Shown here: positions 9,064 to 38,820 of the stretch, in pieces
Layout of the letters: each line of letters starts with the position of its first letter
How positions within the stretch are numbered: the first letter of the stretch is position 1
Source of the DNA: a virus
Virus record (IMG/VR): IMGVR_UViG_3300044644_001860
Span: 82,440 to 146,439 of that record
Strand: one strand, 5' to 3'
DNA: 64,000 nucleotides
Program-made: the position numbers and the translations under genes
The notes under the pieces: model-generated
What the model saw: the letters and a program-made list of their open reading frames with translations, nothing else
Database searches by the model: none
What the model was told of the DNA's origin: nothing

Positions 9064-9317
9064 CACTGCCCTATGAGCGCACCCGGTCGGTCGTTAACGT
9101 GCATGACTTTCTTGTGCGCTTAATCAGTCCGTACAATAAAGACGGCTTCAAGAGAATTCCCAAGGTTGTTCGGCAAGAGGCGTTAGCGCTACTTCGGCAC
9201 TATCCGCAGCCGTACGATATTCACGCCGCAGCCAAATGCGCGCCAGATGTGTTCGACGCGCAGGAAATACTTCGCTATAACGAAGAGCGCAACCCCGAGC
9301 CCCTTACCGATATTTAA
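9060..9317 (+). CDS. BPSL0761-family-like small protein (85 aa)
   Basis: The protein begins [21 protein letters not shown] and contains [23 protein letters not shown]. This combination of an N-terminal ERTRSV and a central ALLRHYP recalls the BPSL0761 family, small proteins common in Burkholderia, Pseudomonas and their phages. The function of the family is not known to me. The ATG overlaps the stop of the HAD gene, so the two are probably co-translated. Confidence 0.72.
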
Positions 9318-9330
9318 GCTGTGGTATACT

Positions 9331-9681
9331 ATGATTGGCGTCAATTTATTAACTGTAGTTGTCGCCGCGTGGTTTGCAGGCGTACTTATCGGATACACGA
9401 TTGCGCGCCTCGACGGTATTGGTCGGCATCTGTATAACTCGTCTGCAAACAACCTTCAGCCGGAAATGCGGCAGCCGGGATTTTTTACGAAAAATCGGGC
9501 CGCTGCGCCGGCTGAAGTTATTAAAACAGCCAAGATTGATATCGATACCAGCAAGGTCGTCACAGAAATAAGCACCAAAGGACTTGAACGCGTCTCGCCG
9601 GCTGAGCTGGGCACAACCACGACGACCGAAGACACGATCAATAAATCGGTATCTCGGCTCTCGCAACTAAAGGGTAAATGA
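9331..9681 (+). CDS. Membrane-anchored hypothetical protein (116 aa)
   Basis: The start at ATG 9331 gives an N-terminal hydrophobic helix (residues 4-24, LLTVVVAAWFAGVLIGYTIA) followed by a polar, Thr/Ser-rich domain with no recognised motif. This suits an inner-membrane protein with one anchor. There is no clear ribosome binding site. An extended -10-like TGGTATACT lies directly before the ATG, so a leaderless transcript cannot be excluded. It ends 1 base before the actin-like gene, with which it may work as a membrane anchor (inference). Confidence 0.65.
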   Translation: MIGVNLLTVVVAAWFAGVLIGYTIARLDGIGRHLYNSSANNLQPEMRQPGFFTKNRAAAPAEVIKTAKIDIDTSKVVTEISTKGLERVSPAELGTTTTTEDTINKSVSRLSQLKGK

Positions 9682-9682
9682 C

Positions 9683-10717: not shown

Positions 10718-10783
10718 CGCGCTAGACGCGATTCTGACCGCGGTGTACCATGGCACCTTTGCACGAACGCAGAAGGTGAACAT

Positions 10784-11251
10784 ATGCGGCGACGGGCTAA
10801 GTTTGAAGGAATTATCATTGCGCGATACGGAAACATTAACGGACCCGACGAGCTGCAGAATTCACCAAAATTTGTCGAACAAACTTTAAAAGCGGGCTGG
10901 CACGTATGCGTCGAAGTGGTTTTCCACAACGGCGCATTTTTATTGCCCCACGCAGAGATTAACGGGCACTCTTTTACGCCTGTCCCGCCGTCCTTTTTTT
11001 CTCGGCAGCGTGTGTGGGCGTGCGCAACAAATCCTGAAACGTTAGACGCGCTGTGCAATATTAATGCGCACTGCTTTATGTTTTCTGGAGAGCAGCCTAC
11101 GCTGACGAGCGCGCATTTTATCTGGACGCCGACGCCACACGCGCTGACAGACCGCGGAATTGCCTATTTGCCTGAAACCGCCCCGCCGGACTGGCTTGAG
11201 AATTGTGAGCCAGCCGGCCTATGCAGTGACCAACCCGCGCAGTATATCTAA
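10784..11251 (+). CDS. Diverged glycerophosphodiesterase-like (PI-PLC superfamily) protein (155 aa)
   Basis: The opening IIARYGNINGPDELQNSP, then an amphipathic helix, a strand CVEVVFHNGAFLLPH, a VWACATNPETLDAL block and a terminal HFIWTPTPHALTD follow the plan of small viral TIM-barrel proteins of the glycerophosphodiesterase superfamily. In those as I recall them, the blocks read S-H-R-G-N, E-V-D and G-H-D. The catalytic His/Glu/Asp positions are changed here (ARYGN, CVEVVF, LPHA), so it may be inactive. A 66-base spacer precedes it. The family assignment is from memory of related sequences and is moderate. Confidence 0.55.
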   Translation: MRRRAKFEGIIIARYGNINGPDELQNSPKFVEQTLKAGWHVCVEVVFHNGAFLLPHAEINGHSFTPVPPSFFSRQRVWACATNPETLDALCNINAHCFMFSGEQPTLTSAHFIWTPTPHALTDRGIAYLPETAPPDWLENCEPAGLCSDQPAQYI

Positions 11252-11306
11252 GCGTAGTGGTCTGCGTTCGTTGACAACTTGGCCGGCAAAAGCGGTTTTA
11301 TTCGGG

Positions 11307-11325
11307 TTTATCGCTGCGCGATAAA
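11307..11325 (+). promoter_or_regulatory. Palindrome overlapping the -35 region, candidate operator
   Basis: The arms TTTATCGC and GCGATAAA are a perfect inverted repeat separated by TGC. It lies 5 bases upstream of the -10-like box TGTTAAAAT, where a repressor or activator could act. It is not followed by a T run, so it does not look like a terminator. Confidence 0.4.
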
Positions 11326-11327
11326 AC

Positions 11328-11336
11328 TGTTAAAAT
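11328..11336 (+). promoter_or_regulatory. Candidate extended -10 promoter element
   Basis: TGTTAAAAT reads as TG-n-TAAAAT and, with the next base, is identical to the element at 4121 upstream of the PhoH-like gene. It is placed to transcribe the structured non-coding region and the holin-like gene. Confidence 0.4.
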
Positions 11337-11576
11337 ACGTGTGCGTCGAGAATTAGTTGTGGCGGTCAACTGGTTAGGGCTGTAGAACGACAGGGATGTC
11401 TATTTTGCAGCTGGTGTCGTGGTCAGGTACTAGCCGAGAACACGATTGGAGGCACGGCGAATGCCGCACGAGACAATTTTTTGTCTTCGAAAGTCGCCGT
11501 AAAGTCTCGATTTTTAATCGAGATACGGACTCGCGGAAGGGGATCGCGAGAATTCTCGACGCACACAAATCTTTAC

Positions 11577-11633
11577 CCGCCAACGGTTTAAACGATGTTA
11601 AATGAAATAACAGAGCCGTTGGCGGTCTTTTTT
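11577..11633 (+). terminator. Intrinsic terminator/attenuator enclosing a start codon
   Basis: A 10-bp perfect stem, CCGCCAACGG (11577-11586) with CCGTTGGCGG (11616-11625), is followed by TCTTTTTT. The 29-base loop contains the ATG of the holin-like gene at 11595. The downstream arm is codons 8-11 of that gene. Folding would both hide the start region and stop transcription. Confidence 0.7.
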
Positions 11634-11951
11634 AGCGCCTTTGGTGTTTCGGCTTTTGCCGGGCTGGCAACGCTTTTGCGCTTTGCCCGGAAACTGTCTA
11701 AACTATCTATCATCAGCGCGATGCTAAACGCCGGTTTTATGGGTTTAGCGATTTCGCTGCTTTGGTATCAAAACTACAGAAAAGCAGAAAACATTTCGGG
11801 CCTGATTGGCATCTGTGTTGTAGCCGGGATGGGTGGCGGAACACTAACAGACATTTTAATCTCGTTACTGTCCGGCGCCGGCATTCGTGTTACCATTACC
11901 CACGAAAGGGAGCAGCATGAAAGCGATCGCGATACCCCAACATTACCGTAA
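11595..11951 (+). CDS. Holin-like membrane protein (118 aa)
   Basis: Three hydrophobic segments (about residues 8-28, 40-57 and 68-92) and a short charged C-terminus (EREQHESDRDTPTLP) fit a class I holin or related small phage membrane protein. The segment GICVVAGMGGGTLTDILISLL resembles LydA-type holins. There is no ribosome binding site, and the start codon lies in the loop of a terminator hairpin, implying tight control of expression, as expected for a lysis-timing gene. The 3' end overlaps the next secreted-protein gene. Holin function is inferred from topology and neighbourhood. Confidence 0.55.
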   Translation: MLNEITEPLAVFFSAFGVSAFAGLATLLRFARKLSKLSIISAMLNAGFMGLAISLLWYQNYRKAENISGLIGICVVAGMGGGTLTDILISLLSGAGIRVTITHEREQHESDRDTPTLP

Positions 11952-12090
11952 TCAACTAAGTCTTTTGTCTTGGGTCTTCGCGGCAATTTGCGCGGGGCTC
12001 CTTTTTTTGGCGGCGGCTGCTTCGGCCAATTCCAGTCACGCCGATACACGCGCCACGAACACGGTAGTTGTATCCGCTCAGACAAAGTAG
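11917..12090 (+). CDS. Small exported protein ending VSAQTK (57 aa)
   Basis: AAAGGGAG lies 7 bases before this ATG, inside the end of the holin-like gene. The N-terminus is a signal peptide or membrane anchor (LLSWVFAAICAGLLFLAAAASA) with a plausible cleavage after ASA. The short mature part ends VVVSAQTK, nearly identical to the end of the secreted protein at 16711-17160 (VIVSAQTK). An outer spanin-type or periplasmic lysis role would suit the position after a holin-like gene. No lipobox cysteine is present. Confidence 0.6.
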   Translation: MKAIAIPQHYRNQLSLLSWVFAAICAGLLFLAAAASANSSHADTRATNTVVVSAQTK

Positions 12091-12100
12091 TGGTGCCGCC

Positions 12101-13486
12101 ATGGACGGCCTCTCCGTACTTGACCCGTCGGGCTGGGAGCCGACCAGCCTAAAGAAATGCGCCGCGTATGCGCAGGGTAATGCGCTAGGCTGGCTGAGCC
12201 GTTCTGATAAGCAAGCGAGCGTCAATCACCCGCTCGCCGGCCGCCTGTATTTAGCCAAAAGCGGGTGGCTGCTTCTTTCTGTCCCGAACGCCTTTGTGCG
12301 TGGCGTGTACGACGCCCTTGTTGCGCCGGGCGCTGAACTTCCGCTTGCCGGCACCATGAACGTGCCCAATGTCGACGCGGGCGTCCTGAACGCCCATATT
12401 TCCGTAATGACTGCCGACGAGGTGCAGTCAATCGGCGCCGACAAGATTAACGAGCGCGGGCACATGTTTTACTACGGCCTCGGCCCAGTGAAAGAGATTC
12501 CCGTTACCAGCATCGAAGGCGTCAGCAAAGTCTGGGTTGTGCAGGTAGCCAGCCCGACCCTCGCGGCTTTGCGCAAAAGCTACGGCCTGACCCCGCTACC
12601 GAAAGGAAACCACCCGTTCCACATCACTATTGCCGCTCGGCGCAAGCACGTGATGGGCAACAACACTGTCAGCAAATTTGACACAGCCCAAGGCCGCGGC
12701 GAGCTAAAAGCCGCAGAACTTTCCCGTTCGGGACAAAAAGTTGCCCGCTCGGGACAAAACGACCTTTTACCGGGCGGAAAAGCCGACAATTTACCCGATC
12801 GGGATTTTTCTTCGTCTGCCTTAGCTGAAGGAGCTAAACATGAACACGAACACGTCACAAATGACCAAATCGCCAAAGAAATTGCCAAAGATCATTTGCT
12901 CGAAGACCCCACCTACTACGAAAAAGTAAAGAAGATCGAAAAAGCGGCCAGCCCCGTGTTGAAAATGCTGCGCGAGGCCAAAGAGCACTCTGATAACAAG
13001 CGCTACGAGCACAAGGCGCGCATTTTGCGGCAATTGATGTCACAGTCTCCGCAAGACTGGGTGATCGACGACAATAAGCCCAAGTTCAAGGGTGTGACAC
13101 ATAAACCTACGAACTTCCGCCTGCACGCCGACCCGCGCAGCATTGATCCGAGAGTAAAAGCCGCTTACTTCAACACCAACTCGCCTTATCGCAGCGTGTA
13201 CGTTCAGGAGATGCTCAATCAGTTTAACCGGCGCATTCCGATTACGTACGATCACAACTTGCCGCTGTTTAAAAACATCCAGAATCAGTTGCTAGAGGTC
13301 AAGAACCGCGGAGACTTTATTCTGCGCACGAGGCAGAACGCCGAGATGTACCGGGCGCATCTTGATCCGATGTATCGCCAGCAGCGGGCGCTTGATGCGT
13401 TCCACAACCGCGACCAGCAGATGCCCATGCTCGACCGCGTGATTTCGCGACACGGTAACGACATTCTTGGCGCTGGAGGTGCGTGA
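12101..13486 (+). CDS. 2H phosphoesterase-like domain fused to a long virion-type extension (461 aa)
   Basis: The N-terminal 185 residues carry the two signature motifs of the 2H phosphoesterase (2'-5' RNA ligase-like) superfamily: HIS at residues 99-101 and HIT at 174-176, each in a beta-strand context. Family members hydrolyse cyclic or 2'-5' phosphodiesters, including phage anti-CBASS proteins. A Lys/Gly/Asp linker (about 200-250) contains repeated SGQ and PGG units. The remaining 210 residues are basic and helical with no known domain. The ATG at 12101 is preferred over an upstream TTG, which overlaps the previous gene. It overlaps the next gene's ribosome binding site. Catalysis is inferred. 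Confidence 0.7.
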   Translation: MDGLSVLDPSGWEPTSLKKCAAYAQGNALGWLSRSDKQASVNHPLAGRLYLAKSGWLLLSVPNAFVRGVYDALVAPGAELPLAGTMNVPNVDAGVLNAHISVMTADEVQSIGADKINERGHMFYYGLGPVKEIPVTSIEGVSKVWVVQVASPTLAALRKSYGLTPLPKGNHPFHITIAARRKHVMGNNTVSKFDTAQGRGELKAAELSRSGQKVARSGQNDLLPGGKADNLPDRDFSSSALAEGAKHEHEHVTNDQIAKEIAKDHLLEDPTYYEKVKKIEKAASPVLKMLREAKEHSDNKRYEHKARILRQLMSQSPQDWVIDDNKPKFKGVTHKPTNFRLHADPRSIDPRVKAAYFNTNSPYRSVYVQEMLNQFNRRIPITYDHNLPLFKNIQNQLLEVKNRGDFILRTRQNAEMYRAHLDPMYRQQRALDAFHNRDQQMPMLDRVISRHGNDILGAGGA

Positions 13487-21282: not shown

Positions 21283-24200
21283 ATGCCGAGCATTTTGCCG
21301 TCATCCGGTTTACAGCCGCCGGCACCACAACCTGCGCAGTACCGGGCATTCGGCGACGTACCGGCACTTCGAGACAATATTTTTAACAACGCTTTGCAGA
21401 GCGCTCAAAGTATCGAGCCGATGCAAAACGATCTTTATACGCTGCGACTATCCGACGTCACTTACGACGGGCCTGAGCGGTTTACTAAAGCCGACCAGAA
21501 GAACGCTATTTTGACGCACGGCTCGCTGCACAGAAAAATGAGGGGCACATGGACTCTGCTGGACAACAAGACACAGAAGCCTGTTGCGACGAGGGCCGCT
21601 ACGATTGCCAACGTGCCGTACCTAACGGACGCCGGTACGTTCGTCAATCGGGGGGTGGAGTACACGCTGGCGCACCAACTGAGGCTGCGTCCCGGTATCT
21701 TCACACGCGAGAAAGAAAACGGGGAGCTGGAAGCCCACGTGAATGCGTTACCGGGCAAAGGCCGGTCGCACCGCTATTATCTGGACCCAAAGACGGGGGT
21801 GTTCAAGATACAGATCGGCCAAGCGCAGATTCCGGTCATGCCGTTGTTAAAAGCGATGGGGATGCGGGACAACGACATCCGGTCAGCGTGGGGGAACGAG
21901 ATCACAGCCGCGAACATGGAGAAGGGGGACGCGGGGACGATCGACAAGTTGTACCAGCGCCTAGTGTACAAGCCGAAACCGGGGATCGACGAGCTGGGAA
22001 AGATCAAGGAGATAGCGCAGGAGTTCGCGAAGACGGAGTTCGACGAGGAAGTGACAAAAAGAACGCTCGGAAAGCCGTACAAGCAGCTGACTCCGGAAAC
22101 GATCATGGACATAACGAAAAAGCTGATCGCGGTGAATCGGAAGGAGGCTGATTCCGACGACCGCGACAGCATGGCGTTCCAGCAGGTTTATGGCCCCGAA
22201 GATTTAATCGCTGAGCGTTTCGTAAAAGACAAAACTGGATTACGGCAGTTACTCTGGAAAGCAACCGCGAAAAAGTCGCTGGATCACATTCCGTCGGGCG
22301 TGTTCAACAAAGGCATTAACGCCGCCCTGATTGGCTCGGGTCTTGGTTCGTCGCTGGAAGAAATCAATCCGGCAGAAATCTTTGATCACCAGACTCGTGT
22401 AACGCGCCTAGGCGAAGGCGGCATCGGTTCGATCGACGCCATTCCCGCCGAGTCCCGCAGCGTGCAACCGAGTCATTTCGGTTTTATCGACTATTTGCGT
22501 ACGCCAGAGTCCGGCAAAGTTGGCGTCGATATGCGGTTTGCCGCCGGTGCCCGAAAAAGCCCGACAAATATTCATACGTTCGTGGTGCCGGTAAAAAACG
22601 TTCACACCGGCGACACGGTCTACAAGACGCCGCAAGAACTAGCCGACACGCCGCTGGTATTTCCGGGCGAAGAGCGCAGCGACCTGCCCATGGTAGCCGC
22701 TTTGCAGAACGGCAAAATTAAATACGTGCCTAAGAAAGACGCGCAGTTCATGTTGCCGAGCATGGACAACTCACTCTCCATGCTTTCAAACATGGTGCCG
22801 ATGAAGTCGATGTCTAAGGGCCAGCGCGTCATCATGGGTAGCCGCATGTTTACGCAGGCACTGCCCCTAGTAAACGCTGAATCGCCGTTTGTGCAGTCAG
22901 CAACGAGCGACGACCCGAATATTTCTTATGAAGACAAGATGGGCGAGCATCTTGGTGCCGTAAAAGCCTCCGCGCCCGGAATTGTCGAGAAAGTGACCCC
23001 CGACGAGATCATCATTAAAGGCGCAGACGGCAAACGACAGTCTATCGAGCTTTACAACGACATGCCGTTTAATCGCAAGACGTTGTGGACGCAAAGGCCG
23101 ACTGTGCAGCCCGGAGATCAGATTACGCCCGGGCAATTACTCGCCACGTCGAACTTTACCGATAAAAACGGCACGACGGCGCTGGGTTTAAATCTTCGCG
23201 TCGGGTATGTCCCTTTCCGCGGCCGTAACTATGAAGACGGCGTGGTTATCAGCGAATCAGCCGCCAAGCGCCTGACCAGCGAGCACATGTATCAGAACGA
23301 AGTCGAGTTTGACGACAACACGCATGTCGGCAAGCGGGCGTTTGTGAGTTTGTTCCCGGGCGTTTACGACAAAAAGATGCTGGAGCGCTTTGACGACAAC
23401 GGCGCAGTGAAAAAAGGCCAAGTCGTCAATTTCGGCGACCCGCTGGTGTTAATGGCCAAGAAGCGCGAAGCGGTGTACGGCAAAGTACACCGAGGCCGCG
23501 CTGGCAGCTTCGCTAACGAGACGATTACGTGGGACCATCATTCTCCCGGCGTAGTCACGGACGTTGGCGTAACAAAAAACGGTGTGAACGTAGTAGTAAA
23601 AGCGCAATCGCCGATGGAAGTCGGCGACAAGCTTTCTGGGCGATTTGGCGATAAAGGCGTTGTGGCTGAGATAGTCCCGGATCATCAGATGCCCCAAGAC
23701 GCCGACGGGCGTGCGATGGAGGTGCTGGTTAGCCCGCTGGGTTTAATCAGCCGCGTAAATCCGTCTCAGGTTATCGAGGCTGCGCTGGGTAAGATTTCAG
23801 CCAAGACGGGTAAAGCATATAAGGTCAAAGATTTCGATCAGGACACAGACCTCGTTGACTTTGCGCAGGGAGAGTTAGCCAAGCACGGGCTGTCAGACAC
23901 AGAAGACTTGACAGACCCGGAGACTGGTAGAAAGATTCGGGGCGTGCTGACGGGCTCCCGGTTCTACATGAAGCTCCACCATACGGCTGAATCAAAGGGT
24001 CAGGGGCGGTCTACGGGCAGTTACACAGCTGAAGGCACGCCGGCCAAGGGCGGTTCCGAAGGCGCCAAGCGCGTCGGCATGCTCGATCTTGGCGCGCTGT
24101 TAAGCCACGGTGCCGGAAAAGTTATCCGCGACGCCAAGATGGTGCGCGGCCAAGCTAATCCGGAGTATTGGGCGCAGTTCATGGCTGGCTATGACCCGCC

Positions 24201-25686
24201 GCTGCCCAAGGTCCCGCACGTCTACGAGAAGTTTGTCAGTCAACTGCGTGGCGCTGGCGTTAACACGGTAAAGTCCGGCTCCAAGGTTAATATCATGGCC
24301 CTCACCGATAAAGACATCGATGAGCTGGCCGGCGACCGAGAAATCCAGAACACTGAGACCGTGGACTGGAAAGGTAACTTAAAGCCGAAGCAGGGCGGCC
24401 TGTTTGACGAAAAGCTCACCGGCGGCCACAACGGCACGCGATGGTCAAAAGTCACGCTCCACGAGCCGATGCCCAATCCTGTGATGGAAGAGCCCATTCG
24501 CCGCGTGCTGGGCCTTACAGAAAAGGAATTCCGCGGCGTGCTGGCCGGCGAAGAAAAGCTTTACGACAAGACAGGCCCGGCGGCTATTCGTACGGCGCTC
24601 GAAAACATCAACGTACCGAAAGCTATTGAGCAGGCTCGGCAGGATATCCAGTCTGGGCGCAAAACACTGCGTGACGCCGCTGTCCGCCGGCTCGGGTTCT
24701 TGAAGGGCTCTGAAACCACGGGTGTTCATCCAAAAGACTGGATGCTGACCAAAATGCCGGTCCTGCCGCCAATGTTCCGGCCGGTGTCGCAAATCGGCTC
24801 CAAAAAGATGCAGCTGATCGACGACGCCAATTATCTCTACAAAGAACTGCTTGAATCTAACTCAGTGCTTAAAGAAGCTACCGGCGTGCTCGGTAACGTA
24901 GGCAACGAGCGCTTGGCCCTGTACGACGCCATGAAAGGCGTTACGGGCCTCGGCGACCCTGTAAACCCCAAACACGTCGAAAAGAACGTCCGGGGTTATT
25001 TACGCAAGATATTCGGCGACAGCCCCAAGTTCGGCACCATGCAGCGCAAACTGCTGTCAAGCACGGTAGACCTTGTCGGCCGGGCGGTGATTACCCCCAA
25101 CTCCGACCTAGACATGGACGAGGTTGCCCTGCCGGAAGAAAAGGCGTGGGATATTTACAAACCGTTTATTGTCCGCGGCCTTGTGCGTCGCGGTATGCCC
25201 CGGATGACCGCGCTCCAGTCCGTTGAAGACAAAAACAAGATCGCGTTCGACGAGATGCATAAACAAATGAATTCGCGGCCGATTGTTATTAATCGTGCCC
25301 CGGTTTTACACCGATATGGTATGATGGCCTTCTACCCCCGGCTTACGAAAAACAAGGTTATGGAGGTCAATCCGGTCATCACCAAGGGCTTTAACGCCGA
25401 CTTCGACGGTGACGCGATGCAGTATCACGTCCCCAGTACCGAAGAGGCGGCCAAAGAGGCAATTGAGAAAATGCTGCCCAGCAAAAATCTGTTTGCGGCG
25501 GCTTCTTTCAAGGCGCACTACATGCCGACGATGGATTACCACACAGGCATCTATCTCGCGTCGAGTCGCATTAACTCTAAAGCTAAGCCCCGTGTTTACC
25601 GAAATAAGAAAGACGCCGTCCGCGCGTATCGTGCCGGCGAAATTGATGTGGACACGCCGGTACACATCGTGGAAGATAAAGACTGA
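21283..25686 (+). CDS. rpoB-rpoC (fusion, partial rpoC): RNA polymerase beta subunit fused to N-terminal half of beta-prime (1467 aa)
   Basis: Residues 1 to about 1000 follow bacterial beta. They include a lobe/fork region (GTFVNRGVEYTLAHQL), GRNYEDGVVISE (647-658), GDKLSGRFGDKG (781-792), the SPLGLISRVNP block and RSTGSY (909-914). Without a stop, beta-prime follows. It contains GGLFDEKLTGG (about 1038), VLPPMFRPV, GRAVITP, NRAPVLHRYG (1337-1346) and the catalytic NADFDGD (1371-1377, three metal-binding aspartates intact). The four-cysteine zinc domain that normally follows GGLF is missing. The chain ends after YRAGEIDVDTPVHI, where the E. coli beta-prime would continue; the rest is in the gene at 26649. 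Product: phage-encoded transcription enzyme. Confidence 0.96.
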   Translation: MPSILPSSGLQPPAPQPAQYRAFGDVPALRDNIFNNALQSAQSIEPMQNDLYTLRLSDVTYDGPERFTKADQKNAILTHGSLHRKMRGTWTLLDNKTQKPVATRAATIANVPYLTDAGTFVNRGVEYTLAHQLRLRPGIFTREKENGELEAHVNALPGKGRSHRYYLDPKTGVFKIQIGQAQIPVMPLLKAMGMRDNDIRSAWGNEITAANMEKGDAGTIDKLYQRLVYKPKPGIDELGKIKEIAQEFAKTEFDEEVTKRTLGKPYKQLTPETIMDITKKLIAVNRKEADSDDRDSMAFQQVYGPEDLIAERFVKDKTGLRQLLWKATAKKSLDHIPSGVFNKGINAALIGSGLGSSLEEINPAEIFDHQTRVTRLGEGGIGSIDAIPAESRSVQPSHFGFIDYLRTPESGKVGVDMRFAAGARKSPTNIHTFVVPVKNVHTGDTVYKTPQELADTPLVFPGEERSDLPMVAALQNGKIKYVPKKDAQFMLPSMDNSLSMLSNMVPMKSMSKGQRVIMGSRMFTQALPLVNAESPFVQSATSDDPNISYEDKMGEHLGAVKASAPGIVEKVTPDEIIIKGADGKRQSIELYNDMPFNRKTLWTQRPTVQPGDQITPGQLLATSNFTDKNGTTALGLNLRVGYVPFRGRNYEDGVVISESAAKRLTSEHMYQNEVEFDDNTHVGKRAFVSLFPGVYDKKMLERFDDNGAVKKGQVVNFGDPLVLMAKKREAVYGKVHRGRAGSFANETITWDHHSPGVVTDVGVTKNGVNVVVKAQSPMEVGDKLSGRFGDKGVVAEIVPDHQMPQDADGRAMEVLVSPLGLISRVNPSQVIEAALGKISAKTGKAYKVKDFDQDTDLVDFAQGELAKHGLSDTEDLTDPETGRKIRGVLTGSRFYMKLHHTAESKGQGRSTGSYTAEGTPAKGGSEGAKRVGMLDLGALLSHGAGKVIRDAKMVRGQANPEYWAQFMAGYDPPLPKVPHVYEKFVSQLRGAGVNTVKSGSKVNIMALTDKDIDELAGDREIQNTETVDWKGNLKPKQGGLFDEKLTGGHNGTRWSKVTLHEPMPNPVMEEPIRRVLGLTEKEFRGVLAGEEKLYDKTGPAAIRTALENINVPKAIEQARQDIQSGRKTLRDAAVRRLGFLKGSETTGVHPKDWMLTKMPVLPPMFRPVSQIGSKKMQLIDDANYLYKELLESNSVLKEATGVLGNVGNERLALYDAMKGVTGLGDPVNPKHVEKNVRGYLRKIFGDSPKFGTMQRKLLSSTVDLVGRAVITPNSDLDMDEVALPEEKAWDIYKPFIVRGLVRRGMPRMTALQSVEDKNKIAFDEMHKQMNSRPIVINRAPVLHRYGMMAFYPRLTKNKVMEVNPVITKGFNADFDGDAMQYHVPSTEEAAKEAIEKMLPSKNLFAAASFKAHYMPTMDYHTGIYLASSRINSKAKPRVYRNKKDAVRAYRAGEIDVDTPVHIVEDKD

Positions 25687-25701
25687 TTTCGGAGGCAAAA
25701 A

Positions 25702-26433
25702 ATGTACACAGTAAATCCTGAACTCTTTCGACTCGCGCAACAAAAGCTATTTGAAAAGTCCGCGGTAGTTCCCGGACAAATGGCGATGCCGCCACAAGAC
25801 CCGGCGGCTATGGGCGCAGTGCCTCCAGCGGGCCCAATGGACCCGTCACAGCAGATGGGCGCAGCTCCTCCCGCAGGTGGAGACCCGTCGGCGGCTATGG
25901 CCAGCATGGCCCCGCCGATGGACCCGACAGCTTCTATGCAGCAACCTCCGGCAGCGCCAGCCCCGACAGCGCAGCCGCAGCAGAAGCTAAAACCAGAACA
26001 GATGATGCAGATGCTCGATTATCGGCTGTATAACATGCAGCAGCAGCTCACGGCAATTATGAATGCCATGGGTGTCGAAGTCGCGCCTGAATCTCTCGTT
26101 TTGCCGCCGGGCACAACAGGTGCTCCCCCTGCTGAAGCTGCGTTACCGGGTGGTCCCATGGCGCCCCCGCCTCCCGCGCAAGATCAAGCAGGCGGTCCGA
26201 TGCCCCCCGGCGGCCCTGTACCTCCCGGCGGCCCTATGCCGCCGAATGCGCCACCAGCCGATGACGGCGCGCCCAAAACAGCGCAATGGTGGCAGACGGA
26301 GCACACCGCACAGAGAATTGGCCGCCCCACCGCACAAGGCGACAATCTTGACGTTAACAGCCCGACACCGATGCAAACAAAAGCAGGTGCGATCGCCGCC
26401 CTTTGCCGGAATTTGCTGAATAATGATCATTGA
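25702..26433 (+). CDS. Pro/Ala/Met-rich low-complexity protein between the RNA polymerase genes (243 aa)
   Basis: TTCGGAGG precedes the ATG. A short N-terminal helix (MYTVNPELFRLAQQKLFEKS) is followed by long Pro/Ala/Gly/Met-rich stretches (residues 22-95 and 130-190). One helical patch (KPEQMMQMLDYRLYNMQQQL) lies near residue 100. The last 40 residues are polar. It is largely disordered and resembles internal structural or tether proteins more than an enzyme. Its place between the two halves of the polymerase suggests it could be an accessory subunit or simply a cotranscribed virion protein. Function unknown. Confidence 0.72.
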   Translation: MYTVNPELFRLAQQKLFEKSAVVPGQMAMPPQDPAAMGAVPPAGPMDPSQQMGAAPPAGGDPSAAMASMAPPMDPTASMQQPPAAPAPTAQPQQKLKPEQMMQMLDYRLYNMQQQLTAIMNAMGVEVAPESLVLPPGTTGAPPAEAALPGGPMAPPPPAQDQAGGPMPPGGPVPPGGPMPPNAPPADDGAPKTAQWWQTEHTAQRIGRPTAQGDNLDVNSPTPMQTKAGAIAALCRNLLNNDH

Positions 26434-26641
26434 GTCCCAACACGCGCTTATCCCTAACAAGATAGCCGCGCACAATGTTGTAATACGCGACGATGCCGGT
26501 AACGCCATATTCGCAGCTATTCACTTTGCAGACAGCATCGTGTATTCGGCGATCGGCAATAAAGATTTTGCATCCGTGCTCAGACTCATCGTGGACGAAG
26601 CACCGCCAAAAGTAACAGAATTTCCGCCCGTTAAAAAATAG
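26423..26641 (+). CDS. Small hypothetical protein (72 aa)
   Basis: It overlaps the end of the Pro-rich gene by 11 bases and ends 7 bases before the beta-prime C-terminal gene. The sequence is a compact alpha/beta protein (HNVVIRDDAGNAIFAAIHF) with a Pro-rich tail. No motif recognised. Strict co-location with the polymerase genes makes a regulatory or subunit role worth testing, for instance an omega-like factor, but no omega similarity is visible. Confidence 0.62.
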   Translation: MIIESQHALIPNKIAAHNVVIRDDAGNAIFAAIHFADSIVYSAIGNKDFASVLRLIVDEAPPKVTEFPPVKK

Positions 26642-26648
26642 GTGCCGT

Positions 26649-28559
26649 ATGCTGAAAACGACACTCGGGCAAATCATGATCAACGACGCGCTACCGCAGG
26701 AGATGCGGGACTACAATCGCGTCATGGATAAGAAGACGCTGAGCTCGTTATCGACCGAGCTCGCCAAGAATTATCCCGAACAGTACCGCGAAGTTACCAA
26801 GAAGCTGTTCGATGTTGGGCGAGACGCCTCCTACTCAACAGGCGGTTTGACGTTCTCCCTGCGAGACATCAAACAAACGCTCGCCGGTCAGCGGGCTAAG
26901 CTGGAAGTGCGAAAGCAGCTTCGCGGCATTATGGCCACGCCGGGCTTGTCTGAAAAAGACCGCAACTTAAAAATCCTCCAGCTGGCGGCGAACACGCAAA
27001 ACAAGCTGCTTGAAGAAGTTTTTAACGAGGCGCAAGATCAAGACAACCCGCTCGCGACCCAAGTCAAATCGGCTATTCGCGGCAATAAGTACAGTCTTAG
27101 CTCACTTATTGGCGCCGACATGCTTTACGTCGACCACAAGGACGAGCCGATTCCGATCCCCGTTCTTAACAACTATGGTAGGGTTCTAACCCCCGCATAT
27201 TTTTGCGCGGGCGCCTGGGGCCCCCGCAAGGGTCTAATTGACACGAAGACAGCCACGGCTGACGCCGGGTTCTACGGCAAGCAATTGACGCAAATGGCGC
27301 ACCGATTACTGGTGACGGCTGACGACGAAGACGACGACGCGCACAAGGACGCTTTAGAAGTCAGAGGGTTCCCAACCGATGTCGATGACGCCGACAATGA
27401 GGGCGCGCTTCTTGCCCGCGGTGCGGGCCCCTATAAACGAAATACAGTGCTGACGCCAAAAATCCTAAAAGACCTGAAACAGATGGGCGTAAAGGACATC
27501 CTTGTTCGTAGTCCATTGGTCGGCGGCCCCGGCGATGGCGGCGTGTTCGGTAAGGACGTCGGCTACCGCGAAAAGGGCCGCATTCCTCCAATTGGCGACT
27601 ATGTCGGTATTGCCGCCGCCCAAGCGTTAAGCGAGCCGGTGTCGCAGTCGCAATTGTCGTCAAAGCACTCCGGCGGTGTTGGTGGCGCGCGGGCCATTGG
27701 CGGCTTCAAAGCTATTAACGCGCTGGTGCAGGTTCCCAAAACTTATCCTGACGGCGCGACACACGCGCAGCGCGACGGAGCGGTTCAAGAAGTACGCCCC
27801 GCGGCTCAGGGCGGCTTTTACGTGCGCGTTGACGGAGAAGATCATTACATCCGCGCCGATCAAAACGTGTCTGTCAAAAAGGGCGACCCGATCGAAGCCG
27901 GCGACGTGCTTTCGGACGGCATGCCCAACCCGTCTGAGGTCGTACGGCATAAAGGCGTCGGCGAGGGGCGTCGGTACTTCGTGGGCGCCATGCGTGACGT
28001 GTTAAAAAATAGCGGCATTACACCGCACCGACGAAACATCGAACTGGTGGCCCGCGGGCTGATCAATCATGTGCGGTTAACTGACGAATACGGCAGTTAC
28101 GCCCCAGATGACGTCGTGCCGTATTCGACGTTAGAGCGCGACTGGCAGCCGAGAGAAGGCGCTGTCTCTGGCGCGCCCTCTTCGTTAAAGGGGCATTACT
28201 TGGAAAAACCGGTGCTGCACTACTCGGTCGGCACAAAGATTGGTAAGGGCGTAATTGACAATATGAGCCGCTACGGAATTAACAACGTGCAGGCCCACAG
28301 AAACCCGCCGCCGTTCCAGCCAGAAATGGTCCGCGGCATGGCGAACATTTCCAACGACCCGGACTGGATGACGCGCATGCTTGGCTCCTACCAAGAACGC
28401 GGATTCTTAAACAGCGTGCACCGGGGACTAAAAAGCGACACAAGCGGCAGTAGTTATGTGCCGGCCCTTGCCCGCGGCGAACAATTCGGGCTTTCTGGCC
28501 CCACAAGCGGCTGGAATCCGGCAACAACTAGGATAGACAGCCAAAACACTGTAAATTAG
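26649..28559 (+). CDS. rpoC (C-terminal part): RNA polymerase beta-prime subunit, C-terminal half (636 aa)
   Basis: The first residues (TTLGQIMINDALPQEM) correspond to the segment beginning TTVGRA in bacterial beta-prime, directly after where the fusion gene ends. Bridge-helix-like residues (RKGLIDTKTATADAG) start at 193. The trigger-loop/helix region (GIAAAQALSEP, 320-330, then SSKHSGG with His340 matching the catalytic trigger-loop histidine) follows. Between these is an acidic insertion (DDEDDDAHKD). The rest covers jaw-like and C-terminal regions. The start has GTGCC upstream and an ATG. Together with 21283-25686 it rebuilds a complete beta and beta-prime core. Confidence 0.94.
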   Translation: MLKTTLGQIMINDALPQEMRDYNRVMDKKTLSSLSTELAKNYPEQYREVTKKLFDVGRDASYSTGGLTFSLRDIKQTLAGQRAKLEVRKQLRGIMATPGLSEKDRNLKILQLAANTQNKLLEEVFNEAQDQDNPLATQVKSAIRGNKYSLSSLIGADMLYVDHKDEPIPIPVLNNYGRVLTPAYFCAGAWGPRKGLIDTKTATADAGFYGKQLTQMAHRLLVTADDEDDDAHKDALEVRGFPTDVDDADNEGALLARGAGPYKRNTVLTPKILKDLKQMGVKDILVRSPLVGGPGDGGVFGKDVGYREKGRIPPIGDYVGIAAAQALSEPVSQSQLSSKHSGGVGGARAIGGFKAINALVQVPKTYPDGATHAQRDGAVQEVRPAAQGGFYVRVDGEDHYIRADQNVSVKKGDPIEAGDVLSDGMPNPSEVVRHKGVGEGRRYFVGAMRDVLKNSGITPHRRNIELVARGLINHVRLTDEYGSYAPDDVVPYSTLERDWQPREGAVSGAPSSLKGHYLEKPVLHYSVGTKIGKGVIDNMSRYGINNVQAHRNPPPFQPEMVRGMANISNDPDWMTRMLGSYQERGFLNSVHRGLKSDTSGSSYVPALARGEQFGLSGPTSGWNPATTRIDSQNTVN

Positions 28560-28597
28560 AGTACCGAGTTTCGACCAATTGCCGCATGGAGGTGGCT

Positions 28598-30967
28598 GTG
28601 TACAACAAACGAGAAAAAAAGGCGTCAGTGCCCCAACTGCTGAAAATTGTGCGTAGTTTTGACCGCACAAACACGAAAACAGCGGCGATCGGCGGTCACG
28701 GCGACGACACATCGTTCGAGCAGGCTTTTTCGAATCTGGCGCATGCTTATTTGCGCGATTCTGCGCCGAAACTCCTTGACCACGAGGTTGGTTTCCAGCT
28801 TCTTGACCGAAACCGCGAAAATACCAAAGCAGTCGGCGTTTTTGCGTTTAAAGTCGGCTCAAATTGGATGTACGCCCCGGTTTTCTTTTTAAATGGCGAT
28901 CTTAAGGGTCACGAGCTGCTGTATCTGAAAAATCAGGACATGTTCGTGCCGCTCAAAGAAAACTGGATTAATTATTTACTCAACCGCAAGCCGAGCATTC
29001 TGGGCAGCGGTATTCAACGAAATTTAACGTCTCTCGGCCAACGGCAGCCTGACTTTACACAGCTTTCCCGTTCGCCCGCAAAGTTTGGTTCCGCGCAACC
29101 GACGCTCAAGGAAATGATGGCGTCCGTTATGCCGACGTTTGCCCGCACGGCGACGATGAACACCAAAGAGGCATTTGAACAGCTTGGGAAGTCTCTCCAT
29201 CTGGGCACGTTTTTAAAGCAAGCGCGACTCGAAACGGTCGAAATGCTTGTGAAGCTCTGTCAGCATGCTCCGCAAGTCGCGGAGGCTCTCGACGAGTTTC
29301 ACGGGCTAAATATCGTTAAAGAAGCGATTGCCGAAATCAAGGAACGTGACCGGCTGAGCAAAATTAGCAGCGTGCTGACGAAAAAGGCCGAGAAGCCGGA
29401 AGCGCAGGGCACGTTGCAGGTCATCACGTACGACCTCACGGTGCAAAAGGCTTTACCGCCAGAATACACCGAAGAAGATCAAGAAAAACTGCTTCGGGAC
29501 GGCGTGCTGATTAAAGACCAGCGGGACCGCGACGCTGTGTCCATTCCGTACAACATTCAAGTCTCGCAGAAGTTCTTCAACCCGACCGAAAGCGGTCTCT
29601 ACGAAGTGTTAGTCAAGCCCGGTGAGATTGAGCGGTGCTACATCGCCGTCCACCCAATGGGTCCCAGCAAGCGCGCTGACTTTGCCACTGTAGTGCGCAT
29701 TGACGGTAAACCGGACTGGCTGAATACGCGACCTGATCATATTTTTTGTTTAGCGCACGTCGAAGGCGACGAGTTCGATTCTTGGTACAACGCGCTCCCT
29801 GACGCCAACAGCGTTGGTAAGGATGCGCGGTACATGGTGCTTAACAAAAACGGAGATACGTCCGTACCGTTCCGCGTGCTCAAAGAGCACGGCGAAAATT
29901 CGTACGGGACGACGACCTATGAGGTCCACATGGAAGATCATTCAAAATTTCCTCCGCGTGGAAGCATTGGCCCGTGCTGCTACTCAGACCCGTTGAATTA
30001 CGACAAGTACCGCGACGGGGTCCGCGTCCATCTGAACGGTAAGAAGGGCGCTGGCTTGCGTTCCAGCATGGGCGACATTTTCGTTCCAGAGAGTTTCAAG
30101 CTGTTAAAAGTCAGCAAGGGCGAAGATGACGACGAATTAGACGGGCAAGATACCTGCGGCTGCGGCGAAAGCGACCCGCCAGCCCTGCAGCCCGGCAACC
30201 TGCTTGATGTGCAGTCTGTGCTTATGAACAAGCTCGGCAGCCTTGAAGTCCGGCATAACGGCTCTGACGTCTGGATTAACAACGAGCAATTTACAACAAA
30301 GAGCGCGCTGATCTCACTGGTAAAACAGCACGGCCTGCGCGAGGCAGCCGCCCGCGAGATTCTTAGCAAAGCAGCCGCACAGCGTAAATTCGCGTGCCAC
30401 GTCAAATATGCCGACCCGTACGGCGGCCCGATGATGATTCACGGCGCCCCGACTGCTCCGGCTGATCCGGGACCGGTTATGGGCGGCGAAAGCATTATGG
30501 GGACGAACATTCCAACGCAGCTTGGCATTGACGTTGGCGTTCCGGTGCCGGGCATGAGCGCGACCCAAACAGACCGCAGCGTTTACAACCCCAACACCCA
30601 GTTCGACCAAAAGGCCGTGCAGCAGGTACTCGACGCCGCCCAGTCTGGTCAGCGTGAAGTGTTTGATACGGCCATGATCGGCACCATGTTGCGCGCCGTC
30701 CGAGACGACGGCCTTGTCGACCGGTACATGGGCGACCTGACAAAGGGTCTGGATAAGATCGGCCGTATTTTGTTTATGTTTTACTGGCACGGTGACCGCT
30801 TTGCCGATCGTTACGGTAAGTCGGACATGCCCGAACTAGAAGACTCGTTGCGCAATGCTTTTGAAATGCTCGGCGACGTTATTCTGTTCTTGAAGCAAAA
30901 AACAATCGAGCCGTACCCCGAAGAGTCATCGCAGGACGTCGACTTGAACGCGCCTGCTAACGTATAG
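28598..30967 (+). CDS. Large hypothetical virion-type protein (789 aa)
   Basis: A GTG start at 28598 is chosen because ATGGAGGTGG places GGAGG about 7 bases upstream; the ATG at 28586 would itself contain that site. The N-terminal 150 residues include a folded domain (VGVFAFKVGSNWMYAPVFFLNGDLKG). A central alpha/beta region and a CGCG pair near residue 520 follow, then a Gly/Pro/Met stretch and a C-terminal helical domain (FMFYWHGDRFADRYG). The length and place between RNA polymerase and head genes suggest a minor virion protein. No homologue recognised by eye. Confidence 0.7.
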   Translation: MYNKREKKASVPQLLKIVRSFDRTNTKTAAIGGHGDDTSFEQAFSNLAHAYLRDSAPKLLDHEVGFQLLDRNRENTKAVGVFAFKVGSNWMYAPVFFLNGDLKGHELLYLKNQDMFVPLKENWINYLLNRKPSILGSGIQRNLTSLGQRQPDFTQLSRSPAKFGSAQPTLKEMMASVMPTFARTATMNTKEAFEQLGKSLHLGTFLKQARLETVEMLVKLCQHAPQVAEALDEFHGLNIVKEAIAEIKERDRLSKISSVLTKKAEKPEAQGTLQVITYDLTVQKALPPEYTEEDQEKLLRDGVLIKDQRDRDAVSIPYNIQVSQKFFNPTESGLYEVLVKPGEIERCYIAVHPMGPSKRADFATVVRIDGKPDWLNTRPDHIFCLAHVEGDEFDSWYNALPDANSVGKDARYMVLNKNGDTSVPFRVLKEHGENSYGTTTYEVHMEDHSKFPPRGSIGPCCYSDPLNYDKYRDGVRVHLNGKKGAGLRSSMGDIFVPESFKLLKVSKGEDDDELDGQDTCGCGESDPPALQPGNLLDVQSVLMNKLGSLEVRHNGSDVWINNEQFTTKSALISLVKQHGLREAAAREILSKAAAQRKFACHVKYADPYGGPMMIHGAPTAPADPGPVMGGESIMGTNIPTQLGIDVGVPVPGMSATQTDRSVYNPNTQFDQKAVQQVLDAAQSGQREVFDTAMIGTMLRAVRDDGLVDRYMGDLTKGLDKIGRILFMFYWHGDRFADRYGKSDMPELEDSLRNAFEMLGDVILFLKQKTIEPYPEESSQDVDLNAPANV

Positions 30968-33877: not shown

Positions 33878-35356
33878 ATGAGCATGATTAAAGTAATTCA
33901 GCCGCACGCACAAAACTTTAGCGAGCCCGTAGCCGCGCTCATCAAAGTATCTAGCCGCGGAATAATCGGGTCTGATCGGTCAGCGCTGATTAAACGTGCC
34001 GGCGCTGAGTTCGTAGATCATTTGGCCAACATCAAGTTTGCCGCGGATGAGGTGCCTGTGCATCTTATCGCCATCGGCGCCACCGAGGATTACGGCCCGA
34101 ACCGCAACGGAGACGGTTTCACGCGTGACTGCTGCAAGAAGTATCACCACACGTTTGAAAAGTTTGCGCGGTTCTATCGGGATCACGCCAACAAGAATCC
34201 GGCAAAAAGCTACGGGCTTGTAAAGGCGTCGTTTTACAACGAACCAATGCGCCGAATCGAACTGGTATGCGCTTTAAATAGCACCAAAGAAGCAGCAGAG
34301 CGTAACGGCGGTTTAGTGGCCGACAAAGAACTAGAGAAGCTGTCGAACGACCAAGAGATTCCAGTTTCGATGGCGTGCAAAATTCCATTCGACAAGTGTT
34401 CGTCGTGCGGCAACATGGCCCGCACCCGCGCCGAGTACTGCGACTCGATTGAGAATGGCGGTCACTGCAAAGCTGGCGGTTTGAAACACAACATCGGTCG
34501 GGTAATGTCTGACGGTCACATCCTGCACGCCGACAACCCTGACCCTTCGTTCTTTGATATTTCGCATGTGTTTCGTCCGGCTGACCGCATCGCGTACGTT
34601 TCCGGACAACTGCAAAAAGCTGCCTCAAGTGCCGGCTGTATGTCTGGCGCAGAGTTAGCTGAGCAAATGGGTGTAACGCTCCCCGTATCGCTCTTAACCA
34701 ACGAATTTACTAGTAAGCGGGCGCAGGCGCAGTTACAGGCTTTACAGTTACTCGCTGACACGGAGCGCACCCTGAACCTGCGTGATCTTACGAAAGCGGC
34801 CGCGTACACCCCAACCGGTCTCTCCGCAGCCATTCAGCAGCCGATTGATTTTGAAAGCGCCCCGATTGTCGGCTCCGTTAAGCTTGCAGAGTTGCTGCGC
34901 GGCTTGGCTGACGCGGCGGTTGTCTTACCCGTGCGCGACTTCTTGATGTTAACAATTAAACAAGCTGATTTTGGGCTCGTGAACGCGGTATCATCTGCGA
35001 CAATTAGCATTTTTGACCGGCTGTTGAACGAGCCAAATATTGCATCTACACTTGAAAATAACGTATACTTTCCGGCAGACGCAGCTCCGCCGGCCGTGCG
35101 TTTATGGGCCGAAAAAGTGGCGTGCACTTACAGCGTACTAGAAGATCGTATGCAAAAACAGGCTTATACAGCGGCATTGCGCGGTGCAACGCCGCGTCAT
35201 CTTGTAGAGAAGACTGCATCGGCAACGCCAGCGATAAATGCTCTTGCAAAGCACTACGCTCTCTATAAGATTGCTGCATTAACGGCAGTCACTGAGAAAT
35301 ATGGAAATAACTTGTTGACAGTAGGCCACTGCATACTGCAAAATTACATTACTTGA
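33878..35356 (+). CDS. Putative capsid maturation protease with Cys-rich zinc-like module (492 aa)
   Basis: The first 130 residues (VPVHLIAIGATEDYGPNRNGDGF ..., FYRDHANKNPAKSYGLV) recall the strand-helix arrangement and His-bearing loop of herpesvirus-type capsid proteases seen upstream of scaffold genes in large myophages. A CSSCGNMARTRAEYCD cluster follows, with a further Cys in GGHCK: four or five cysteines able to bind zinc. Then comes FFDISHVFRPADRIAYV, a block conserved in related phage proteins as I remember them. The C-terminal 230 residues are helical and may be processed. Gene order (protease, acidic scaffold, capsid) supports the call. Confidence 0.55.
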   Translation: MSMIKVIQPHAQNFSEPVAALIKVSSRGIIGSDRSALIKRAGAEFVDHLANIKFAADEVPVHLIAIGATEDYGPNRNGDGFTRDCCKKYHHTFEKFARFYRDHANKNPAKSYGLVKASFYNEPMRRIELVCALNSTKEAAERNGGLVADKELEKLSNDQEIPVSMACKIPFDKCSSCGNMARTRAEYCDSIENGGHCKAGGLKHNIGRVMSDGHILHADNPDPSFFDISHVFRPADRIAYVSGQLQKAASSAGCMSGAELAEQMGVTLPVSLLTNEFTSKRAQAQLQALQLLADTERTLNLRDLTKAAAYTPTGLSAAIQQPIDFESAPIVGSVKLAELLRGLADAAVVLPVRDFLMLTIKQADFGLVNAVSSATISIFDRLLNEPNIASTLENNVYFPADAAPPAVRLWAEKVACTYSVLEDRMQKQAYTAALRGATPRHLVEKTASATPAINALAKHYALYKIAALTAVTEKYGNNLLTVGHCILQNYIT

Positions 35357-37862: not shown

Positions 37863-37893
37863 CTCTAACTAATAGAACATGGAGGTTCTTAAG

Positions 37894-38820
37894 ATGCCCA
37901 CTCAGCAAGAAATCCAACTGCTCAACGAGACTCTTTTTGAGCAGCTTGATACACCCGGCATGCAGAAGCAGGCCATTGATGCGGTTAACGACTTCACGCG
38001 CACCAAGATGCGTGAAGACGGCTTCTACCGTCGTATTATCCCGCCGCTAACCATCACCAACGACGAACTCGATCGTCAGGTTGATACGGACAAGCCGGTG
38101 AAGGTAGTCGACAAGGAGCCCGATTCCCCGGCAGCCGTGTCGATTCCGTTCGCCACGCTCCCGAGCAACTTTTACATCCGTGGCCCGCGCTACCGCGTCA
38201 TGTTTGACCGGATCGTGTCGCCCCGCGCTGTAAAGGACGTTGACGAGCTGCGTACGTACGTCATCGACATCCGTCAGGTCCTCAGCGACAACATGATCAA
38301 GGACATGCTCGCTGAAGAAGACTCGAAGTTCATCACGGCGTTTAACCTCGCCGTAGGCACAAAGGACGCCGTTAACACGCTGTCCGATACCGTGCAGTAC
38401 GAATCGATCAGCGGCGGGATCACCCGCGAAACGCTGGTTGACGCGCTCAAGGTAATGCCGAAGACCCCGAGTCACTTTGAGGTTGAAACCTGCCTCGTGA
38501 ATAACATCACGATCAAGGAACTCCTCAAGTTTGGCCGCGACGAGATGGGTGGTGATTTCTCGCAAGACATCATCAAGAACGGTTGGGCGGAGACGAACTT
38601 CCTCAACTGCCGCTGGATCGTCACGATCAAGCGGAACCTCGTTCAGGACAACGAAATGTACATGTTCGCCAGCCCCAAGTTCATCGGAAAGAACTACGAG
38701 CTTGAGCCCACCACGATGTATATCCGTCGTGAAGCTTACATGCTTGAGTACTTCTCGTACAACACGCAGGGTGGCTCGTTCGGTCACACGAACGGTCTGG
38801 CGAAGGTTGAATTTGTCTGA
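37894..38820 (+). CDS. Major capsid protein (HK97-fold-like) (308 aa)
   Basis: The ATG at 37894 is chosen since the upstream in-frame ATG at 37879 overlaps the GGAGG ribosome binding site. An N-terminal helical arm (residues 1-60, ETLFEQLDTPGMQKQ) leads to an E-loop-like region and a spine-helix-like segment (YVIDIRQVLSDNMIKDMLAEED). P-domain strands (CLVNNITIKELLKFGRDEMGG) and a final beta segment (TTMYIRREAYMLEYFSY) follow. The order of neighbours (protease, scaffold, decoration, then this) and the size fit a major capsid protein. Fold assignment by eye, no search. Confidence 0.75.
   Translation: MPTQQEIQLLNETLFEQLDTPGMQKQAIDAVNDFTRTKMREDGFYRRIIPPLTITNDELDRQVDTDKPVKVVDKEPDSPAAVSIPFATLPSNFYIRGPRYRVMFDRIVSPRAVKDVDELRTYVIDIRQVLSDNMIKDMLAEEDSKFITAFNLAVGTKDAVNTLSDTVQYESISGGITRETLVDALKVMPKTPSHFEVETCLVNNITIKELLKFGRDEMGGDFSQDIIKNGWAETNFLNCRWIVTIKRNLVQDNEMYMFASPKFIGKNYELEPTTMYIRREAYMLEYFSYNTQGGSFGHTNGLAKVEFV

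Follow-up and report, generated by a model that had tools for sequence, protein, structure and literature searches.

The multisubunit-type RNA polymerases (RNAPs) of large phages are known in several arrangements. In the phiKZ-like phages, both the beta and the beta-prime subunit are split (PMC7598289), as the preliminary description of the DNA treated here had also said; these phages have no beta/beta-prime fusion, carry two polymerases per genome and lack a sigma factor (PMC7598289, PMC7824862), and the split polymerases of jumbo phages have been argued to be relics of an early multi-piece enzyme (PMC7824862). A cut of beta-prime after its double-psi beta-barrel (DPBB) domain is known in cyanobacteria and in jumbo phages (PMC7598289). 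In the tailed mReC phages (Weinheimer and Aylward 2020, PMC7481178), beta and beta-prime are seen by ordinary profiles and are named as subunits, the word "fused" being used, in the text available, only of crAssphage, and the crAss-like polymerase (vRNAP) has no detectable similarity to the cellular beta/beta-prime profiles; a viral RNAP gene named "beta and beta prime" has been placed at the base of mReC, without a fusion being stated in the accessible text (PMC10159854). Here, we have analysed the last 64,000 bases (positions 82,440-146,439; hereafter "the window") of the 146,439-base IMG/VR virus record IMGVR_UViG_3300044644_001860, where the polymerase is encoded as two chains: the whole of beta fused to the N-terminal part of beta-prime, and a separate C-terminal part of beta-prime.

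This layout is shared by the cultured Salmonella phage Arash (OQ632216; PMC10585845), which has a fused beta/beta-prime-N chain, gp206 (1525 amino acids, aa), and a separate beta-prime-C chain, gp216 (606 aa), together with a homologous sigma factor, gp10, and syntenic structural genes, and which falls in the same clade of our trees. Arash differs from the window in that identity over the fused chain is about 32%, nine annotated genes lie between the two halves, zinc site 2 is kept, and a second sigma gene (gp196) is present. The layout is already deposited with the Arash paper of 2023, its chains being annotated as RNA polymerase subunit beta, i.e. as plain subunits, and the words "fused" and "split" being absent from the main text (PMC10585845). 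The preliminary description had suspected that the layout may be unusual: it is not unique, since it is present in Arash, in the Vibrio phages D69 and D181 and in many IMG/VR contigs, but we have found no description of a phage beta/beta-prime-N fusion with a split beta-prime-C in the accessible text of open PMC papers (subscription papers, preprints and supplements are outside this scope).

The two chains and their catalytic elements are located in the window as follows:

21283-25686, plus strand: fused RNAP chain, whole beta (residues 1 to about 1000) and beta-prime N-terminal part (about 1011-1467); open reading frame (ORF) of 1467 aa, Pfam, PDB matches, E. coli alignment and model
23623-23661, plus strand: beta double-psi barrel motif GDKLSGRFGDKGV with two active-site lysines; alignment
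25393-25413, plus strand: beta-prime catalytic NADFDGD; alignment
26649-28559, plus strand: beta-prime C-terminal part; ORF of 636 aa, Pfam, PDB matches, alignment and model
27192-27299, plus strand: putative bridge helix, a predicted 36-residue helix at residues 182-217 of the short chain; model, with its identity taken from the alignment
27594-27683, plus strand: trigger-loop region with a conserved His; alignment

In the 1467-aa chain, the Pfam domains of beta, i.e. Rpb2_2 (residues 142-300), Rpb2_3 (358-420) and Rpb2_6 (562-915, E 7e-51), are followed by Rpb1_1 (1118-1199, E 1.9e-8, its 34.5 bits lying below the cut-off of 39.7) and lastly by Rpb1_2 (1319-1395, E 1.9e-26); the 636-aa chain contains Rpb1_5 (E 1.5e-20). 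Among PDB chains searched with phmmer, the long chain matches bacterial beta (E 5e-72), its residues 1071-1462 match beta-prime 151-548 (E 3.3e-49), and the short chain matches beta-prime 664-1182 (E 8.4e-36). By both Pfam and the alignment with the E. coli enzyme, beta is a single uninterrupted stretch of the long chain; according to the alignment it ends near residue 1000, and beta-prime starts near residue 1011. Residues 1-29 of E. coli beta-prime are not represented in the window, and several lineage-specific inserts are likewise missing. The profiles, the alignments and the models of the parts bear out the preliminary description, where the long chain was read as beta followed, without a stop, by beta-prime-N with NADFDGD.

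The N-terminal piece of beta-prime ends near E. coli residue 550, its last five residues (VEDKD) being unaligned, and the C-terminal piece starts at 569, with a Met that is aligned in six of six rows; at the cut, about 18 loop residues are all that is left unmatched. As far as the conserved blocks on either side of the cut are concerned, the claim that the halves are contiguous and that nothing was lost is correct. The split is not located within a duplicated region, since no part of E. coli beta-prime is covered by both pieces. The two ORFs stand as first described, with the amendment that two genes, of 243 aa and 72 aa, are located between them in a tight row: the long chain stops at 25686, the 243-aa gene runs from 25702, the 72-aa gene overlaps its end, and beta-prime-C follows from 26649.

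The position of the cut matches neither the cyanobacterial nor the AR9 cut exactly. Cyanobacterial RpoC2 starts near residues 12-19 of the window's beta-prime-C (judged by PDB chain starts), so that the RpoC1/RpoC2 cut, which also follows the barrel domain but leaves beta separate, is located about 11-18 residues further downstream; AR9 gp154 carries residues upstream of its TTxGR-like block, and, judged by eye, gp270, its partner, stops short of the position that is cut in the window. It seems that the stretch from the barrel to TTxGR has been cut on more than one occasion. The phiKZ-like non-virion and virion enzymes (nvRNAP/vRNAP, e.g. of AR9) resemble the window in having no alpha and a beta-prime that is cut after the catalytic barrel; in the window, however, beta is not split, a second recognisable polymerase is not seen, a sigma factor is present, and alpha has likewise not been found. 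As in mReC, beta and beta-prime with NADxDGD occur in a tailed phage; the divergent capsid protein of the window (37879-38820) has no Pfam match at E<=1, the mReC capsid family PF07068 included. The crAss-like single-chain vRNAP, a virion enzyme, shares with the window group the location of both barrels in one polypeptide, but the similarity of the window to cellular profiles is strong (Rpb2_6 and Rpb1_2, see above). Bacterial rpoBC fusions (Helicobacter, Wolbachia) have the same order, beta before beta-prime, but they are cellular and join beta to the whole of beta-prime with its zinc ribbon; the relative L013 scores 329.5 bits against NF007172, whose cut-off is 5372.

The layout recurs in cultured phages and in metagenomic contigs. 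A tblastn search of 50,697 phage records has matched 47; in four of these, Arash and the Vibrio phages D69, D181 and D148, 80% or more of the query is matched at a single place. Arash and D69 have the fused and split layout, and so has D181, apart from a homing endonuclease inside the beta part; its gene (L005, 13453-14377) is located between two beta pieces that are continuous in D69. IMG/VR has been scanned with the fused-chain alignment (116 relatives matched, 80 kept), with beta-prime-C (80 loci) and with an alignment built on full fusions, i.e. on single chains with all four parts (at least 487 relatives matched, 80 kept); since the loci of each scan are ranked by how similar they are to its query, the fractions that follow are not prevalences. 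In the fused-chain scan, beta-C and beta-prime-N occur with at least part of beta-N in one ORF in 78 of 80 loci (L061 and L101 are cut), a separate beta-prime-C ORF is found within the downstream flank in 67, and a single ORF with all four parts in none. The 13 loci that have no beta-prime-C ORF comprise six with less than 1 kb downstream, three with 2-3.6 kb and four with 4.3-7 kb; at L102, L104, L105 and L106, where the fused chains have about 1,640 aa and no such ORF occurs in the 4.3-7 kb fetched downstream, the second gene is either farther away or absent. The beta-prime-C scan has returned 12 of 80 loci with one ORF of 2,023-2,424 aa that holds all four parts, and the full-fusion scan 72 of 80, with five further loci cut by stretch ends and three broken by in-frame TGA. 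The chains of the full-fusion group have mostly 2,020-2,210 aa, and in three of them only 4-18 residues are located between the parts that align to the window's two chains. Counted by the sequence of one stretch, there are about 73 distinct split sequences (mostly from IMG/VR) and about 75 distinct full fusions, approximate numbers because they include a small number of loci cropped from the same contig (e.g. L086/L150, L089/L162).

Viral contigs with separate genes have a compact beta-prime (about 900 aa) and a beta of about 1,000 aa where uncut (L279, L286, L290, L331, L342, L353, L362 and L383); they are probably of the published mReC kind. L026-L028 were considered as separate-gene phage enzymes and rejected: their beta-prime, in which the bacterial zinc ribbon is retained, resembles ordinary bacterial rpoC. 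L026 and L027 (OR844998 and OR846602), unverified wastewater/faeces records that are named Staphylococcus and Enterococcus phages and carry bacterial-looking rpoB-rpoC, are likely bacterial contigs, and L026 has been used as an outgroup only; a scan with the alignment of L026-L028 has given one locus, L270, itself a split-type phage.

Most of the catalytic residues are kept. Among the 30 positions of the E. coli alignment that were checked in the window, the metal-binding Asp triad and both barrel lysines, K1065 and K1073 of E. coli beta, are preserved, as are the equivalents of E. coli E813, D814, R678, R1106, H1237, R425, N458, T790, Q929 and H936, the last being the conserved trigger-loop His of beta-prime; by alignment and model, the features of bacterial type that are kept comprise the catalytic aspartates, the barrel lysines, the bridge helix and the trigger-loop His. 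In the rifampicin pocket, one position is kept and two differ; the equivalents of E. coli beta D516 and S531 are Glu and Thr. All eight zinc-ligand positions are lost in the window. The zinc ribbon (E. coli beta-prime 68-99), recognised as missing already in the preliminary description, is deleted with its cysteines 70/72/85/88; these are absent from all 66 fused rows (50 of 50 full, 16 of 16 split) and present in E. coli, in the one bacterial contig and in four of five separate-gene viral rows, the fifth, the distant L358, lacking them too. Zinc site 2 is kept in six of the 16 split rows (Arash, D69 and four others).

AlphaFold2 has been run on parts, each alone: residues 268-1467 of the long chain (mean predicted local distance difference test, pLDDT, 79.6; predicted template modelling score, pTM, 0.70) and the short chain (pLDDT 81.9). 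Residues 1-747 of the long-chain model match bacterial and plastid beta chains with Z up to 36.5 and a root-mean-square deviation (rmsd) of 4.3 over 688. The short-chain model, in which a 36-residue helix is located at the place expected for the bridge helix, matches Thermus beta-prime in Foldseek (E 2.5e-25); its structural alignment with beta-prime has Z 31.2 and an rmsd of 16.9 over 470, a deviation taken to reflect movable domains in the isolated chain. Among viral predictions, the best fold matches of the fused model are giant-virus polymerases (Pithovirus, E 2.8e-30), with some phage rows lower; this search yielded nothing on gene layout.

For the trees, 143 rows were collected, of which 113 remained after removal of near-duplicates; these were reduced to 73, 42 and 26 rows, the step from 113 to 73 consisting of stronger thinning and of dropping fused rows longer than 2260 aa (long insertions), except L296, and the 26-row tree excludes L296 and L358. 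L296 encodes, at 5739-12725 on the minus strand, a 2329-aa full fusion that scores closer to bacterial enzymes. In FastTree (73 rows x 1990 columns) the split clade and the full-fusion clade are both supported by 99, and in a quick IQ-TREE run under LG+C20 (42 rows x 1936 columns) by 99 and 97, respectively; L296 stands apart in both. In the careful IQ-TREE run (26 rows x 1818 columns), the split clade has an ultrafast bootstrap (UFBoot) of 100 and an SH-like approximate likelihood ratio test (SH-aLRT) value of 99, with the window inside; the full-fusion clade is its sister (91/92), and the separate-subunit rows are together outside (100/100). Fusion followed by fission needs two events from separate subunits and an earlier split needs three, so that the simplest history would be one in which beta and beta-prime fused first and a second event then cut beta-prime; the absence of the zinc ribbon from every fused row fits one origin of the fusion.

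The beta-prime catalytic domain PF00623 occurs at one locus per record in 16 of 16 records, the window's record (possibly a fragment) included; a second polymerase is not found by this domain in the 16, where a highly divergent one would escape it. The alpha subunit domain PF01193 is found in none of six records at E<=0.1, control genomes being positive in 13 of 14 cases. Sigma70_r3 has been matched in 14 of the 16 records, 12 times above the cut-off, and the window's sigma matches 12 of 13 given sigma loci at E<1e-6, the exception being the second Arash sigma gene (L014). With one recognisable polymerase locus, no alpha and a conserved sigma, the system does not belong to the phiKZ type, where sigma is missing and two polymerases occur. 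In Arash particles, gp206 has 3516 spectra and 128 unique peptides, the most of the listed proteins and above the capsid protein, gp216 has 1210 spectra, and sigma gp10 has 467 (PMC10585845); from the prominence of these three proteins we infer a virion-packaged, sigma-guided, alpha-less early enzyme.

We favour, with some reserve, a reading in which the window encodes an active, alpha-less, sigma-dependent RNAP of multisubunit type that belongs to a large tailed phage, is packaged, and was fused and then re-cut. In such an enzyme, the beta/beta-prime-N chain would build both double-psi barrels, the beta-prime-C chain would supply the bridge helix, the trigger loop and the jaw, and the two chains would assemble with the phage sigma factor; the two-chain enzyme with its sigma would travel in the virion and serve the early transcription of phage genes. 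Its history would have begun with the joining of beta and beta-prime into one chain of about 2,050 aa, the zinc ribbon being lost; on the branch to the window phage, beta-prime would then have received a new cut in the loop that links the catalytic barrel to the TTxGR block. Whether phages have preserved a complete cycle of this kind, from separate subunits through a single chain of about 2,050 aa without the zinc ribbon to a new cut, with a product that is virion-packaged, alpha-less and sigma-dependent, is a question on which we are evenly divided.

Several observations weigh against the fused and re-cut, packaged enzyme. Four positions of the bridge helix and the trigger loop differ from E. 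coli (K789 is Ala, L930 Ser, M932 Leu and R933 Ser), and zinc site 2 is lost in ten of the 16 split rows, the window and its own subclade among them. The fold matches listed for the long-chain model are beta chains, which test the beta part only, and the models cover single parts of the enzyme. In the trees, the support of the full-fusion clade is moderate (91/92), the outgroup branches are long, and in two trees the long-branched L296 full fusion belongs to neither clade; that position, if true, would strengthen fusion-first. Two of the 16 records have no match to sigma region 3, and a second, non-homologous RNAP gene fragment is reported in a virus whose RNAP sits near mReC (PMC10159854). 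The evidence for packaging comes from Arash alone, a distant relative (about 32% identity); the Arash preparation contained 116 proteins, primase and ligase included, and its authors offer carry-over as an alternative (PMC10585845), so that the packaging step is not proven.

Were the particle proteins of Arash indeed carried over, the enzyme could be a non-virion polymerase, produced in the infected cell for middle or late genes, an explanation that is named by the Arash authors and is in keeping with the several replication enzymes of the same preparation; we take it seriously and yet doubt it, as gp206 tops both the spectra and the unique peptides, above the capsid protein, sigma gp10 is present (PMC10585845), and the RNAP genes adjoin the structural block. 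The order of events might also be the reverse: beta-prime would have been cut before the full fusion arose, its N-part joining beta in a split ancestor and the full fusions re-joining the C-part later. The cut after the DPBB that is known in cyanobacteria and jumbo phages (PMC7598289) speaks for this history, and the split and full clades are sisters, so that the tree does not directly show the ancestral state; three events would be needed from separate subunits instead of two, however, the cut points differ from those of cyanobacterial RpoC2 and AR9 gp154, and at separate-gene phage loci such as L286, L290 and L353 a single ORF spans the N-part of beta-prime and some of the C-part, all of which makes the older cut unlikely in our view.

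The loss of the zinc ribbon, of zinc site 2 and of several lineage inserts, together with the four altered bridge-helix and trigger-loop positions, could be expected of a degenerate polymerase with a structural or host-takeover role and no catalysis, but the NADFDGD aspartates, both barrel lysines and the equivalents of R425, R678, R1106 and H936 are kept, and long frames are maintained across about 70 distinct sequences; a degenerate enzyme is very improbable. It is hardly credible that the pieces are exons or a single gene broken by an assembly error, a frameshift or an intron, for which the annotated homing endonuclease between two beta pieces of D181 might be quoted: the fused-chain scan has 67 of 80 loci with a separate beta-prime-C ORF and none with an all-in-one ORF, cultured phages have the same layout, no intron family is found at 25500-26900, the C-piece starts at an aligned Met in all six rows, and two conserved genes are located between the pieces.

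Further genes of the window that have been considered with the polymerase are the following:

25702-26433, plus strand: P/A/Q-rich protein of 243 aa, encoded between the RNAP pieces; its conservation in close relatives is seen at 38 loci (E<1e-20, low-complexity filter off)
26423-26641, plus strand: conserved small protein of 72 aa between the RNAP pieces; 96 loci match, including some that are cropped from the same contig
28586-30967, plus strand: weak homologue of Arash gp218, a particle protein; E 1e-5 over 212 residues, Arash proteome table
33878-35356, plus strand: homologue of the Arash structural protein gp222; E 2e-35
37879-38820, plus strand: major capsid protein, homologue of Arash gp226; E 2e-26, PHROG 2522 E 7.8e-4
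46758-49967, plus strand: tail-sheath-like structural protein, its C-terminal part homologous to Arash gp236
62717-63520, plus strand: sigma-70-like factor of 267 aa, homologous to Arash gp10, with recognisable regions 3 and 4; Sigma70_r3 E 3.5e-10, r4 2.3e-5

The genes downstream of the RNAP match Arash gp218 (weakly), gp222, gp226, gp233 and gp236 in order, and the RNAP genes are located upstream of structural genes that are syntenic with those of Arash. The 243-aa protein has no Pfam or PHROG match at E<=0.01, and the 72-aa protein has no Pfam match at E<=10. No RNA family, introns included, is found at 25500-26900 at E<=1; over the whole window, Rfam at gathering scores gives one tRNA only, a single tRNA-Asn gene at 7557-7629. 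The ORF at 12068-13486 combines a 2H phosphoesterase domain (2H-SAK, E 4.9e-10) with DUF5661.

Insertions and in-frame stops have also been met in the RNAP genes of the relatives. Among the full-fusion frames, that of L256 is interrupted by three in-frame TGA codons and those of L235, L268, L295 and L298 by one each, as if these phages decoded TGA as an amino acid. In L013 and its companions L011 and L012 (fused ORF of 1805 aa), an in-frame insertion of about 330 aa is located between RTPE and SGK of beta; that of L013 begins with Cys and ends with Asn before Ser, and looks intein-like by eye. NCBIfam intein models do not match L013 at E<=0.01, and they do match the insertion of the relative L094. 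The beta-prime-C ORFs of L040, L093 and L107, of about 1,030 aa, have insertions that match intein-containing models, and the beta-prime-C of L074 and L090 is also long, with no intein match. Inteins seem to have entered the RNAP genes of this lineage often.

It is still debated whether large phages inherited their many-piece polymerases as ancient relics or obtained them by secondary cutting of cellular enzymes. The lineage described here bears on the debate: it offers an ordered series of layouts, separate, single-chain and re-cut, at sequence distances that trees can still resolve, so that the direction of change can be tested. If the fuse-and-recut history is true, split phage polymerases can be secondary products of gene fission and not relics of an early multi-piece enzyme. 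The group also points to a polymerase of few parts that is close to the bacterial enzyme, with one or two core chains, one sigma and no recognisable alpha; such a natural minimal holoenzyme may serve as a model for alpha-free assembly, for function without the zinc ribbon and for virion delivery of a sigma-programmed polymerase, and the single-chain core of about 2,050 aa could serve as a tool for in vitro transcription.

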